NCBI GenBank assembly: GCA_029981855.1
Contig: JARRCS010000001.1
Coordinates: forward strand, 62,001 to 126,000
Direction: 5' to 3'
DNA length: 64,000 bases
From: Halanaerobiales bacterium
Lineage (GTDB): Bacteria; Bacillota; Halanaerobiia; Halanaerobiales; DTU029
The stretch's first letter is position 1. Every line of letters starts with the position of its first letter. Of this stretch, positions 29,558 to 34,703 are shown in pieces. The notes under the pieces were generated by a model. That model searched no databases, was not told the DNA's origin, and saw only the letters and a program-made list of their open reading frames with translations. The position numbers were made by a program, and so were the translations under genes.

Positions 29558-29920
29558 ATGGAAAAAGAATGGTCAAACGAATATGGAAAAATAACTATTG
29601 CTAAAGAGGTTATTGCCAAAATTGCCGGCCTGGCTGCTATGGAGTGTTACGGACTGGTCGGCATGTCTTCACGTAATGTTCAGGATGGTCTAGCCGACCT
29701 CTTAGGCCGGGATAACCTAAGTAAAGGTGTTCTTGTCGAAATTAATGATGATCAGGTAAGGTTAGAGTTAAATATTATTGTTGAGTATGGAACAAATATT
29801 CATGAAGTTGCCCATAACATTATAGATAGAGTAAAATATATTTTAGAAGAGAAGATTGGTATTAAGGTTGAGAAGATAGATGTTAATGTACAGGGAGTGA
29901 GGGTTGGTAATGCAGGTTAA
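29558..29920 (+). CDS. Asp23/Gls24 family envelope stress protein
   Basis: A 120-residue protein with the family pattern YGKITIAKEVIAKIAGLAAM near the N-terminus, then CYGLVGMSSRNVQDGLADLL and a C-terminal half with VEYGTNIHEVAHNIIDRVKY. Members such as YloU are membrane-associated or cytoplasmic proteins of unclear role. ATG 29558 is chosen behind AAAGAGGTG; ATG 29540 is in frame but lacks a site. Overlaps fakA, as in most Bacillota (yloU-yloV). Confidence 0.92.
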   Translation: MEKEWSNEYGKITIAKEVIAKIAGLAAMECYGLVGMSSRNVQDGLADLLGRDNLSKGVLVEINDDQVRLELNIIVEYGTNIHEVAHNIIDRVKYILEEKIGIKVEKIDVNVQGVRVGNAG

Positions 29921-31559
29921 TGAGGAATCAAAGGGCCTACTTAAGGCTATTGATGGACATAAATTTAAGGAAATGTTAATTGCGGCTTTAATGTGGTTAA
30001 AGGAACAGCAATCTTTGATAGATTCTTTAAATGTATTCCCCGTTCCTGATGGGGATACCGGGACTAATATGTATTTAACCTTTCTGGAGGCTATCAAGGA
30101 AGTAAAGAAGGTTGAATCAAATAATGTGAATGAGATAAACTCTGCACTGGCAAAGGGAGCCTTAATGGGGGCAAGAGGTAACTCGGGCGTTATCTTATCC
30201 CAGCTGTTAAGGGGCTTTTCCCTTGCTAATAAAGATAATAGGGAATTTACCTGCGAAAATCTGGTTCAGTCCTTAAGGAAGGCATCAGAGGTTGCCTATC
30301 AGGGTGTTCTTAAACCCGTCGAGGGAACGATTCTGACGGTTTCCCGTAAGGCTGCCGAAGGGGCCGAGTTAGCCTTTAAAAATAAGCTCGATCTGGTTGG
30401 AATACTGGAAAATTCGATTTATTTTGCTAGAGAAGCCCTGAATAAAACCCCGAAACAGTTACCTGCCCTTAAAGAAGCCGGGGTAGTTGATGCTGGTGGT
30501 CAGGGGTATCTGACCATTCTTGAGGGCCTGTTAAAGGGGCTTGCCGGTGATAAGGTCTTTCATCAGACAGAACTGGAGGTTATTAAGCCCGGGAAGAAGG
30601 AAGAAGTTAAAGAGGATTTAAAATACGTCTACTGTACTCAGTTTCTGATTAATTTCGAAGGTAAAAATAGAAAGGAAATAAATGAGATTAGAAGTGACCT
30701 CGAGGCTTATGGGGATTCCCTTTTAGTTGTTGGTGCCGATAATATTGTTAAAATCCATATTCATACTAATCATCCCGGTGTAATTCTGGAGTACGGACTA
30801 AAGTTAGGTTCTATTAATGACGTCAAGATCGATAATATGAAGATGCAGAGCGAGGAAAAAATCCGCCGGGAGGAAGAGAAACAGAGACAGGAATTTATGA
30901 ACCGGCAGGGCAAGGGGATTATTGCTGTTGGCCAGGGTCAGGGCATTAAAGATATTCTGCAAAATCTAGGTGTTGATATAGTTATCGATGGCGGACAGTC
31001 AATGAATCCCAGTACCAATGACTTTCTGGAAGCAATTAATAATTTAAATAGTCCGGAGGTTATTATCTTGCCGAATAATAAGAATGTAATCTCTGCTGCC
31101 AGGCAGGCAGCTTCCTTAAGTGAAAAGATGGTAGAGGTTGTTCCCACAAGAAATATTCCCCAGGCTATCAGCAGTTTGCTGGTCTTTGATGAAGATGTTG
31201 AGCTGAGTGAATTAAGGGAAATGATGGAGAGAGAGATGAAACATGTGAAGACCGCAGAAATAACTACGGCAGTTAAGGATTCCAGGGTTAACGGATTTGA
31301 GATCAAGGCAGGGGATATAATCGGTATCTATAATGGCGATATAATAGAGGTTGGGAACAACTATAAAGAGGTTGTTGCCGCCCTGCTGGAAAAAATTGCC
31401 GATGATGAGGAGATATTAACCATCTATTATGGTGAAGATATTGCTGAGGAAGAAGCCATGGAGATTAGGGATCTGATAGAACGGGAATTTAATTTTGATG
31501 AAGTAGAGGTGTATAATGGGAGCCAGCCATTATATCCATTAATTATTTCATTGGAATAG
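29910..31559 (+). CDS. fakA: Fatty acid kinase catalytic subunit FakA (DAK2 domain)
   Basis: A 549-residue protein that phosphorylates fatty acids bound to a DegV-family FakB partner. The N-terminal DhaL-like domain has NVFPVPDGDTGTNMYLT (Mg-ADP aspartates) and GARGNSGVILSQLLRGF; the middle and C-terminal domains include IHIHTNHPG and later DDEEILTIYYGEDI. ATG 29910 overlaps the Asp23 gene; TTG 29904 is also in frame. The degV/fakB-like gene follows directly but is interrupted, so its usual partner is lost unless another copy exists elsewhere. Confidence 0.94.
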   Translation: MQVNEESKGLLKAIDGHKFKEMLIAALMWLKEQQSLIDSLNVFPVPDGDTGTNMYLTFLEAIKEVKKVESNNVNEINSALAKGALMGARGNSGVILSQLLRGFSLANKDNREFTCENLVQSLRKASEVAYQGVLKPVEGTILTVSRKAAEGAELAFKNKLDLVGILENSIYFAREALNKTPKQLPALKEAGVVDAGGQGYLTILEGLLKGLAGDKVFHQTELEVIKPGKKEEVKEDLKYVYCTQFLINFEGKNRKEINEIRSDLEAYGDSLLVVGADNIVKIHIHTNHPGVILEYGLKLGSINDVKIDNMKMQSEEKIRREEEKQRQEFMNRQGKGIIAVGQGQGIKDILQNLGVDIVIDGGQSMNPSTNDFLEAINNLNSPEVIILPNNKNVISAARQAASLSEKMVEVVPTRNIPQAISSLLVFDEDVELSELREMMEREMKHVKTAEITTAVKDSRVNGFEIKAGDIIGIYNGDIIEVGNNYKEVVAALLEKIADDEEILTIYYGEDIAEEEAMEIRDLIEREFNFDEVEVYNGSQPLYPLIISLE

Positions 31560-31574: not shown

Positions 31575-32658
31575 ATGAAGATCGGACTTATGGCCGACAG
31601 CACCTGTGATTTAAGCAAGGTTATTCTGGAAAGATATAATATTAAGCTAGTTCCTTTAAGTATTCATTTCGGGGAGACCGTTTATCTGGACAGGGTAGAG
31701 CTGGGAAGTGAGGAATTTTTCTTAGCATGAAAAAGTAGATTGGCAACCAAATGCAAAAATTATGGTAAATATTGTCAAATAACTGGACATTTCGCTCTAA
31801 ATATTATATGATTGGATTGTGAGCTATATATTGGTCATCAACATTATGCTTAAATAATGAATGGGACAATTATTGGTTACATAATAATGTGGCATAACCA
31901 ACCGACTTTTTCATGCTACCGAATTTTTTGCAAAACTGGAGAATTCTGAAGAACTGCCAACAACCTCTCAACCGCCTATCGGTATCTTTGTAAAAAAGTA
32001 TGAGGAAATGGCAGCAGAGTATGATGCCATTATCTCTATCCATCTCTCCGAAAAGTTTAGCGGAACAGGGAAGGCTGCCCGGATGGCAGCTACTCAATTT
32101 GATGATCTTGATATCAGGGTAATTGATTCCCGTTCTGTTAGCCTGGGAACCGGTTATCTAGTTTTACTGGCAGCGAGATTAATCAGGTCTGGTTATGGCC
32201 CGGATGAAATAGTTGAGAAGATTGAGAAGGCCCGGGATAATATCTTTATCTACTTTACCGTTAATGACCTCAGTTATCTCCAGAAGGGGGGCAGAATCGG
32301 TAAAGCCCAGGCCTTTCTGGGGTCGATCTTAAATGTTTATCCCGTCCTATCTCTGCCTGGAAATAGCGGGGAGATCCTGCCGCTGGAAAAGGTCAGGGGC
32401 AAAAAGAAGATTATTAAAAGGCTGGTTAAGCTTGCAATGGAAGAACTGGAAGGTGTGAATAATGCCTGTCTGGGTTTGGTTCATGGCACCAATTTAGATG
32501 TCTTTAATAATTTTAAAGAGATGTTAAAGAATAGATTGTCTGAGAAAGAATCATTTGAATATAGAATGGATGTTGAATGGATCAGTTCAGTTCTGGGATG
32601 TCATGTAGGTCCCTCAGTCTACGGGATTGTTATTTTTAAAGGAGACTTTCTTAAGTGA
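31575..32658 (+). pseudogene. DegV family (FakB-type) protein gene, split by a 200-bp insertion
   Basis: Residues 1-51 (31575-31730) begin MKIGLMADSTCDLSKVILER and end GSEEFFLA at a stop supplied by the insert. The rest resumes at 31921 with EFFAKLENSEELPTTSQPPI and runs to 32658, including IISIHLSEKFSGT, VIDSRSVSLGTG, GGRIGKAQAF and VLGCHVGPSVYGIV. These are the lipid-binding DegV motifs. If the insert (31721-31920) and one copy of the 8-base duplication are removed, both halves join in frame with no other defect. ATG 32008 could start a shortened C-terminal product. Located between fakA and recG, as expected for fakB-like genes. Confidence 0.88.
31721..31920. mobile_element. MITE-like 200-bp insertion with terminal inverted repeats and 8-bp target duplication
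   Basis: The element is flanked by GAATTTTT on both sides (31713-31720 and 31921-31928). Its ends are inverted: CTTAGCATGAAAAAGT at the left, and the reverse complement of the right end reads GGTAGCATGAAAAAGT; over 23 bases, 19 agree. It has no long ORF, so it would need a transposase in trans. An 8-bp duplication is seen with ISL3-type and some other IS families, so a derivative of such an element is possible. Confidence 0.85.
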
Positions 32659-34703
32659 TGAAAGAGTTGCCCAAGAGCGTACAATTTATTAAGGGGGTAG
32701 GCCCCAGGTATGCCGGGATACTGGCAAAACTGAATATTGAAACCGTGGAAGACCTGCTCTACTATTTTCCCCGGGATTATCAGGACAGGAGTCATTTTAC
32801 ACCGATTAAATATATCAGGCCCGGTGAGGAACTTACCGTTAGGGGAGAGGTACTTAAGGTTGCTGAACAAAGGCTTAGACGGGGGCTTTCTATTTTGCGG
32901 GTAACTATCACAGATGGTACGGATGTCTTAAACGGTGTCTGGTTTAATCAACCCTATCTCAAAAATAAATTTAAAAAGGGACAGGCCTACATCTTTAATG
33001 GGAAGTTAAATGAAAAGAGCTGGCAGTTTAAGAAAAAGGAGATCAATAATCCTGTCTTTGAGGAGCTTGATGCCGGGGAAAATATTCATACGGGCAGGGT
33101 AGTTCCCATCTACCCCCTGACCAGTGGCATTACACAAAAAAGGCTGAGGCAGATAGTCTATAATGCCCTTAATGACTATGCCTGTCATTTAGATGATATC
33201 CTGCCGGGTTTCTTAAAGGAAAAATACGGCTTTTTAGATATTGCCGAGAGTATCCGGGGATTACACTTTCCGGACGATAGAAATCATTATATAAAAGCCC
33301 GCAGCAGACTGGCCTTTGAAGAACTTCTCCTACTGCAATTATTAGTTCTGAAGAGAAAGAGGGGTATTTCCCAGGAAAGGGGGATTAAACACCGGGACCC
33401 GGGAAGGGTTCTGGAGGATTTCTTAAACTCTCTTGCCTTCGAGCTTACCCCTGCCCAGAAGAGGGTCTGGTCTGAGATAAAAAATGACCTGGAAAGGGAC
33501 ATACCCATGCAGCGTCTATTACAGGGTGATGTTGGTTCAGGGAAGACCATTATTGCTACTCTGGCCCTGATTGAGACCATGGCCAATGGTTTTCAGGGGG
33601 TTTTTATGGCCCCGACCGAGATCCTGGCAGAACAACACTATCTCAAATTAAGTGAACTGCTGGGCAATCTGGGATTTAAGGTAAGGTTGTTAGTAGGGGG
33701 ATTAAATCAGGGAGAAAGGCAAGAGGTCGAAAAAGAGATCAAAGCTAATGAGGTGGATCTGATTATCGGTACTCATGCCCTTTTTCAGGAGAAGATTACC
33801 TATCATAGACTGGGTCTGGTTGTAATTGATGAACAGCATAGATTCGGGGTAGAACAACGTTTCCGTCTGAAAAATAAAGGAGAGAATCCGGATTTGCTGG
33901 TTATGACGGCAACTCCGATCCCGCGTACCCTGGCCCTAACCCTTTACGGAGACCTGGACCTCTCCATTATTGATCAATTACCCCCGGGGCGTAGTCCGGT
34001 GATTACGACCTGGAGGAATGAAGAGGCCAGGCCTGGCGTCTACAGATTCGTTAAAGATAAAATTAAAGAAGGCCGGCAGGCCTATGTGGTCTGTCCTCTA
34101 ATAGAGCCTTCTGATGAACTTAAGGCAATTTCCGCTCTAGAGATGCAGGATAGACTGGCCGGTGATATTTTTAAGGATTTTAAGATCGGCCTTTTACATG
34201 GCAAATTAACCTCAGAGGAGAAAAAGGCTGTCATGGAGGAGTTTCGTGACGGCAAAATCGATATCCTGGTCTCAACAACTGTGGTAGAGGTCGGGGTTGA
34301 TGTTCCCAATGCCTCGATTATTATTATTGAGAATGCTGAACGTTTCGGACTGGCCCAGCTGCATCAGTTAAGGGGCAGGGTCGGCAGGGGTAGGCACCAG
34401 TCCTATTGTATCTTAATTGCCAATCCGACTACCGAAGAGAGCAGACAGAGACTCAAGGTTATGACCGCTACTGGTGATGGATTTCAGATTGCTGAAGAAG
34501 ATCTAAAGATCCGTGGTCCGGGTGAATTTTTCGGGACCAGACAGCATGGGATTCCTGATTTAAAGGTGGCCAATATTCTTAAAGACCAAAAATTAATTAA
34601 CCTTTCCAGGAAAGAGGCCGAAGCAATCATCTATGAAGAGAACTGGGAAGAAAAGTACCCTCTATTAAAAAAGAAGGTTGATGAACTTGAATTGAAGGTT
34701 TAA
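32658..34703 (+). CDS. recG: ATP-dependent DNA helicase RecG
   Basis: Remodels stalled forks and Holliday junctions. The N-terminal wedge domain (about 1-230, with VEDLLYYFPRDYQDRS) precedes the helicase core: GDVGSGKTIIATLAL (Walker A, about residue 290), DEQHRFGVEQR, TATPIPRTLAL and the C-terminal QLRGRVGRG. 681 residues, normal. ATG 32658 overlaps the DegV stop (TGATG); GTG 32655 is one codon upstream. Followed by a strong terminator. Confidence 0.97.
   Translation: MKELPKSVQFIKGVGPRYAGILAKLNIETVEDLLYYFPRDYQDRSHFTPIKYIRPGEELTVRGEVLKVAEQRLRRGLSILRVTITDGTDVLNGVWFNQPYLKNKFKKGQAYIFNGKLNEKSWQFKKKEINNPVFEELDAGENIHTGRVVPIYPLTSGITQKRLRQIVYNALNDYACHLDDILPGFLKEKYGFLDIAESIRGLHFPDDRNHYIKARSRLAFEELLLLQLLVLKRKRGISQERGIKHRDPGRVLEDFLNSLAFELTPAQKRVWSEIKNDLERDIPMQRLLQGDVGSGKTIIATLALIETMANGFQGVFMAPTEILAEQHYLKLSELLGNLGFKVRLLVGGLNQGERQEVEKEIKANEVDLIIGTHALFQEKITYHRLGLVVIDEQHRFGVEQRFRLKNKGENPDLLVMTATPIPRTLALTLYGDLDLSIIDQLPPGRSPVITTWRNEEARPGVYRFVKDKIKEGRQAYVVCPLIEPSDELKAISALEMQDRLAGDIFKDFKIGLLHGKLTSEEKKAVMEEFRDGKIDILVSTTVVEVGVDVPNASIIIIENAERFGLAQLHQLRGRVGRGRHQSYCILIANPTTEESRQRLKVMTATGDGFQIAEEDLKIRGPGEFFGTRQHGIPDLKVANILKDQKLINLSRKEAEAIIYEENWEEKYPLLKKKVDELELKV

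Follow-up and report, generated by a model that had tools for sequence, protein, structure and literature searches.

A fakB-type degV gene in the 64,000-nucleotide stretch of DNA that we analysed (the window) is split by a 200-bp element, and this element is very probably an internally deleted insertion sequence (IS) of the prokaryotic Mutator-like (p-MULT) superfamily that inserted in degV. We hold this explanation, taken as a whole, with high confidence; the anatomy of the insertion, the parentage of both of its segments and the uninterrupted state of degV in relatives can be read directly from sequence comparison, as can the probable superfamily of the transposase.

The element occupies positions 31721-31920 on the plus strand and is flanked by two identical copies of GAATTTTT (31713-31720 and 31921-31928), which is the exact 8-bp target-site duplication (TSD) that the first-pass annotation had described. 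With the boundaries fixed and the composition of the gene taken into account, the probability of such a match by chance is about 2e-5. The terminal inverted repeats, each of 23 bp (CTTAGCATGAAAAAGTAGATTGG at 31721-31743 on the plus strand and GGTAGCATGAAAAAGTCGGTTGG at 31898-31920 on the minus strand), are identical at 19 of 23 positions, and half of the mismatches come from the two bases at the very tip, which read CT at the left end and GG at the right, so that a terminal C is present on the left end only and the right end begins with G. The length of 200 bases, the 19 agreeing positions and the absence of a transposase ORF were all reproduced base for base. The boundaries do not depend on the degV locus alone, since other copies in the same genome end at the same bases: the left end found on contig C1 begins at the same base, the right end on contig C22 stops at the same base, the left repeat is also shared with a relic on C6, and the right repeat is found nearly unchanged on C16 and C6. 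Inside these ends, positions 31721-31850 (plus strand) form the left segment of the parent IS, with its terminus and the putative transposase promoter region, while positions 31851-31897 (plus strand) are, by sequence comparison, a remnant of the 3′ end of a transposase gene, ending in NEWDNYWLHNNVA and a stop codon. The two parts meet at an internal deletion junction (31850-31851, about 1 bp of microhomology) that was located by comparison with C1 and C16.

The consequence for degV is a short frame. Its 5′ fragment (31575-31730, plus strand) has 51 codons and then stops at a TGA within the element (31728-31730), and for the 3′ fragment (31929-32658, plus strand) the first in-frame start codon listed is at 32008. 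When the flanks are joined on one copy of the TSD, an open DegV frame of 291 codons is obtained (Pfam DegV, E=5e-82) with no further stops or frameshifts, just as had been predicted for removal of the 200 bases and one duplication. The joined frame has both the DegV domain and the orthologous position that are looked for in a member of the DegV/FakB group. Aligned with the proteins of 29 relatives of the same order and class (none of them from the same genus, and all compared at the protein level), it passes through the junction, EEFF/AKLENSEE, without a gap. Upstream lies fakA, encoding the catalytic subunit of fatty acid kinase (29904-31559, plus strand; Pfam Dak2, FakA-like_M and FakA-like_C), and downstream lies recG (32655-34703, plus strand; Pfam RecG_wedge and helicase domains), which overlaps the degV stop codon. 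The order fakA-degV-recG is kept in 25 of the 29 relatives, and their degV genes can therefore be regarded as orthologues; in these relatives degV is uninterrupted through the site.

The claim that a non-autonomous transposon splits degV is thus borne out by the TSD, the terminal repeats and the uninterrupted gene in all 29 relatives, none of which carries the same 200 bases without a duplication. On this comparison of sequences, the insertion is specific to this genome among the genomes searched. The first-pass annotation had also suggested that the insertion is young. Of 53 near-invariant positions, two are changed in the joined DegV, and 0-7 are changed in intact relatives; together with the frame that is open apart from the insertion, these substitutions are compatible with a decay that has not been long under way, while the event itself is not dated by them. 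FakB proteins bind fatty acids, and FakA phosphorylates those fatty acids (PMC9136124). What we describe is a fatty acid kinase operon that is losing its fakA-adjacent FakB gene. Two other degV genes, on contigs C20 and C32, keep open frames, and with these intact genes in the genome the loss may be tolerable.

A search of the whole genome for the element and for matching ends revealed related copies on contigs C1, C16, C6, C22 and C2. The first 130 bp of the element are found at the end of C1 with 97% identity (four differing positions), and there the sequence continues beyond the deletion point with a Shine-Dalgarno-like AGGAG and then an ATG opening TTTACAATGAAA, before the contig stops. 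The last 70 bp or so are found at the end of C16 with one difference, in the second-last base, and this right segment encodes the C-terminus of a transposase, reading ALLALKTIQLNNEWDNYWLHNNVA and then a stop codon. As both termini are accompanied by coding sequence, the parent was longer, with a single gene spanning it, in agreement with the earlier proposal that the element had been moved by an IS residing elsewhere in the genome. Repeated insertion sequences usually fall at assembly breaks. The full-length parent is, we infer, present in the genome within assembly gaps, and the contig ends point to an intact transposase. The flanks equivalent to the TSD are AAATTTTT on C1 and ATATTTTT on C16, and because they differ by one base, the two ends may belong to different copies of the IS. 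The right-end relic on C22 is flanked by AATTTTTT, and an AT-rich target is thus common to degV, C1, C16 and C22.

Three older relics were also recognised: C6 has one of 360 bp with both ends, C22 retains a right end, and on C2 there is a left region that has diverged. The C6 relic (L057 4999-5358; G000:C6:29303-29662) carries a 72-codon frame of the C-terminal region of the transposase; a tRNA-Thr gene is about 85 bp away, and a clear duplication is no longer visible in the flanks of the relic. The C2 relic (L006 1501-1936; G000:C2:16290-16725) has kept the promoter, and it adjoins, at the contig end, what appears to be a C-terminal fragment of an IS3-type transposase on the other strand. Close to the end of contig C1, where the full-length IS starts (L058 8211-9732; G000:C1), at least two pseudopilin-like genes (FTLVELLVVIAIIGVL) stand in tandem.

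The most plausible course of events would be as follows. One full-length copy of the IS lost its interior when a deletion, whose endpoints share almost no homology, took out everything between about nucleotide 130, counted from the left end, and a point about 70 bp short of the right end. What remained, a 200-bp form with both terminal repeats, would then have been moved in trans into degV by the transposase of a full-length IS, which is the simplest account precisely because both ends were kept, and this insertion would have duplicated eight AT-rich target bases. DegV would be truncated after about 49 native residues and hence presumably inactive. Read in this way, the locus clearly illustrates how an IS gives rise to a non-autonomous derivative; as a mobile-DNA event it is clean but ordinary, and it leaves the knowledge of such elements unchanged. 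A variant of the same explanation, differing in the order of events only, is that the full-length IS entered degV first and its interior was deleted in place, so that the 200-bp form never moved. We consider this order possible, if the less probable of the two. The deletion junction is found once in the genome assembly, at degV, with no second copy that would prove transposition of the short form, and several relics indicate that internal deletions do occur in this IS family. Nothing decisive speaks against it, as a TSD is expected either way, and with a single copy of the junction, movement as a miniature element and deletion in place are inseparable.

Under the preferred explanation, in which the deleted IS was carried into degV, the left segment brought with it a sigma-70-type promoter-like site, TGGACA-17-TATGAT (31784-31812, plus strand), which agrees with the consensus at 10 of 12 positions, is directed toward recG and is one of the best-matching promoter-like sequences of the region. 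The same hexamers with the same 17-bp spacing are found in the C1 copy, and the diverged C2 relic reads TGGACA-17-TATAAT. This conservation suggests that the site is the transposase promoter of the parent IS. If it is active, it probably helps transcription of recG and of the genes beyond, and thus it may offset the polarity of the insertion on recG. Several miniature inverted-repeat elements (MITEs) of prokaryotes are known to carry a promoter-like site of this kind (PMC10969869).

The first-pass annotation had called the disruption reversible. As removal of the element would restore the frame, it might be assumed that degV is a phase-variable switch, operated by precise excision that takes place often between the two 8-bp copies of the repeat. 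For IS256, a family related to that of the degV element, precise excision has been attributed to transposase-independent slippage that needs a repeat of at least 8 bp (PMC5225508). A repeat of exactly this minimum length is present here, and the folded-back ends (z of -3.6 as RNA) could favour such slippage. We therefore treat precise excision of the degV element as mechanistically possible only. No selection for switching is evident, and we regard a regularly operating switch as improbable.

The first-pass annotation had gone further and named the element a MITE. Its small size, inverted ends and TSD do look like those of a MITE, as does the absence of an ORF, and prokaryotic MITEs such as Chunjie and Correia (PMC10969869) resemble it in being about 200 bp long, with inverted ends, a TSD, no ORF and an internal sigma-70-like promoter site; Chunjie-1 likewise disrupts one of two duplicate operons (PMC10969869). 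However, several identical short copies, which characterise a MITE, are not found: the other copies in the genome differ in structure, the deletion junction has no second occurrence in the assembly, and no copy with it was seen in 40 relatives. Exact searches of genome_contigs with the left end and of viral_contigs with the element ends gave no match either, though both collections may omit this genome. In contrast to Chunjie and Correia, here we have a single copy of this structure, which is a recognisable deleted IS and not an amplified family. Because the junction is unique, the element is, on its sequence, a single internally deleted IS, the term MITE is too strong, and membership in an established multi-copy MITE family appears quite unlikely. 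Also unlikely is a combined scenario in which a small mobile family, belonging to an uncurated p-MULT lineage, starts with this element, which at the same time serves as a reversible switch, with FakB turned off, the promoter maintaining recG, and excision restoring DegV in a subpopulation.

Both parent ends lie at contig ends, which tells us that the assembler struggled with this IS, and one may therefore ask whether the element is an assembly artefact in which the two ends of a collapsed IS were fused. We find this hard to believe, as four positions separate the left segment from C1 and one separates the right segment from C16, the overlap at the junction is only about 1 bp, and the TSD is exact and locus-specific. 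That the element is a self-removing intron or is bypassed in translation, so that DegV is still made, can practically be dismissed: exact removal does leave an intact frame, but a search of Rfam with the element matched no family, introns included, and the TSD and the IS-derived ends explain it fully.

The assignment of the deleted IS to p-MULT relies on its transposase, which could be scored from a C-terminal piece only, as the whole protein is not assembled. An 86-residue query pieced together from C16 and the C6 relic matched, in hmmscan, the profiles of ISKra4 (8.5e-5), ISLre2 (1e-3) and ISH6 (0.01), all three being p-MULT families (PMC3942029). In this superfamily the inverted repeats measure 18-39 bp and have a terminal C that is conserved, and the duplications are of 8-9 bp (PMC3942029). 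When 398 genomes of the phylum were searched, closer relatives came to light. One of these genomes, G336, contains on its contig C16 a complete IS of 1,712 bp (L084 2821-4532), both ends of which begin with CTTAGCACGCATAA, and hence with C, and which is flanked on both sides by the 8-bp TSD AAAGATTT; a duplication of p-MULT length is thus shared by this relative and the degV element. The CTTAGCA ends are also common to the two. The G336 IS has one long transposase frame, broken by a stop near the C-terminus, and this frame matches ISKra4 (5e-32), ISLre2 (1e-17), ISH6 (6e-13) and Pfam UPF0236 (3e-12). The curated cut-off of the ISKra4 profile (NF033572) is 205 bits, and the transposases of two relatives reached 111 (G336) and 99 bits. 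Given that the G336 score is below this cut-off, we place the parent IS, by its transposase sequence, in the p-MULT superfamily, nearest to ISKra4, without filing it as a member of ISKra4.

With p-MULT 4 (the ISKra4, ISMich2 and ISAzba1 groups; PMC3942029), the parent shares what looks like the C-terminus of a Mutator-like DDE transposase, the 8-bp duplication and inverted repeats of about 23 bp with a C on the left; it is unlike them in that the degV copy has no transposase, the relatives score well below the ISKra4 cut-off, the right end has a G and the parent is incompletely assembled. ISH6 (p-MULT 2) resembles it in the 8-bp AT-rich target duplication, the reported preference of ISH6 being AANATNTT (PMC3942029), and in a weak profile similarity, but its profile score is below that of ISKra4 and its known members are almost all archaeal.

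Several other searches gave little. The 24-residue C-terminal peptide alone matched no family, and its 57% match in genome G027 was a false lead, lying within a long ORF that reads as a rhamnose isomerase. No relative turned up in genome_contigs when it was scanned with the C-terminus of the relic, and matches to an Acaryochloris plasmid represent a weak relative only. In the genome studied here, no match to the ISKra4 profile (NF033572) was above the curated cut-off; those on contigs C14 and C39 look IS256-type by reading and carry no piece of the element.

The combination of CTTAGCA ends, an 8-bp AT-rich duplication and an ISKra4-related transposase lineage is found in distant genera of the phylum. 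It is possibly an undescribed or little-described IS group, and it could be described as a new one. Further copies of the CTTAGCA-ended IS stand at contig ends of G336 and of another genome, G357. On contig C12 of the latter, the right end of a related IS is flanked by AAATTTTT, and directly beside it (L066 1-1450) lies a CRISPR-like array of regular repeats, translated as ISIPSSSGQGLQ or VAVLDPMTRGLK.
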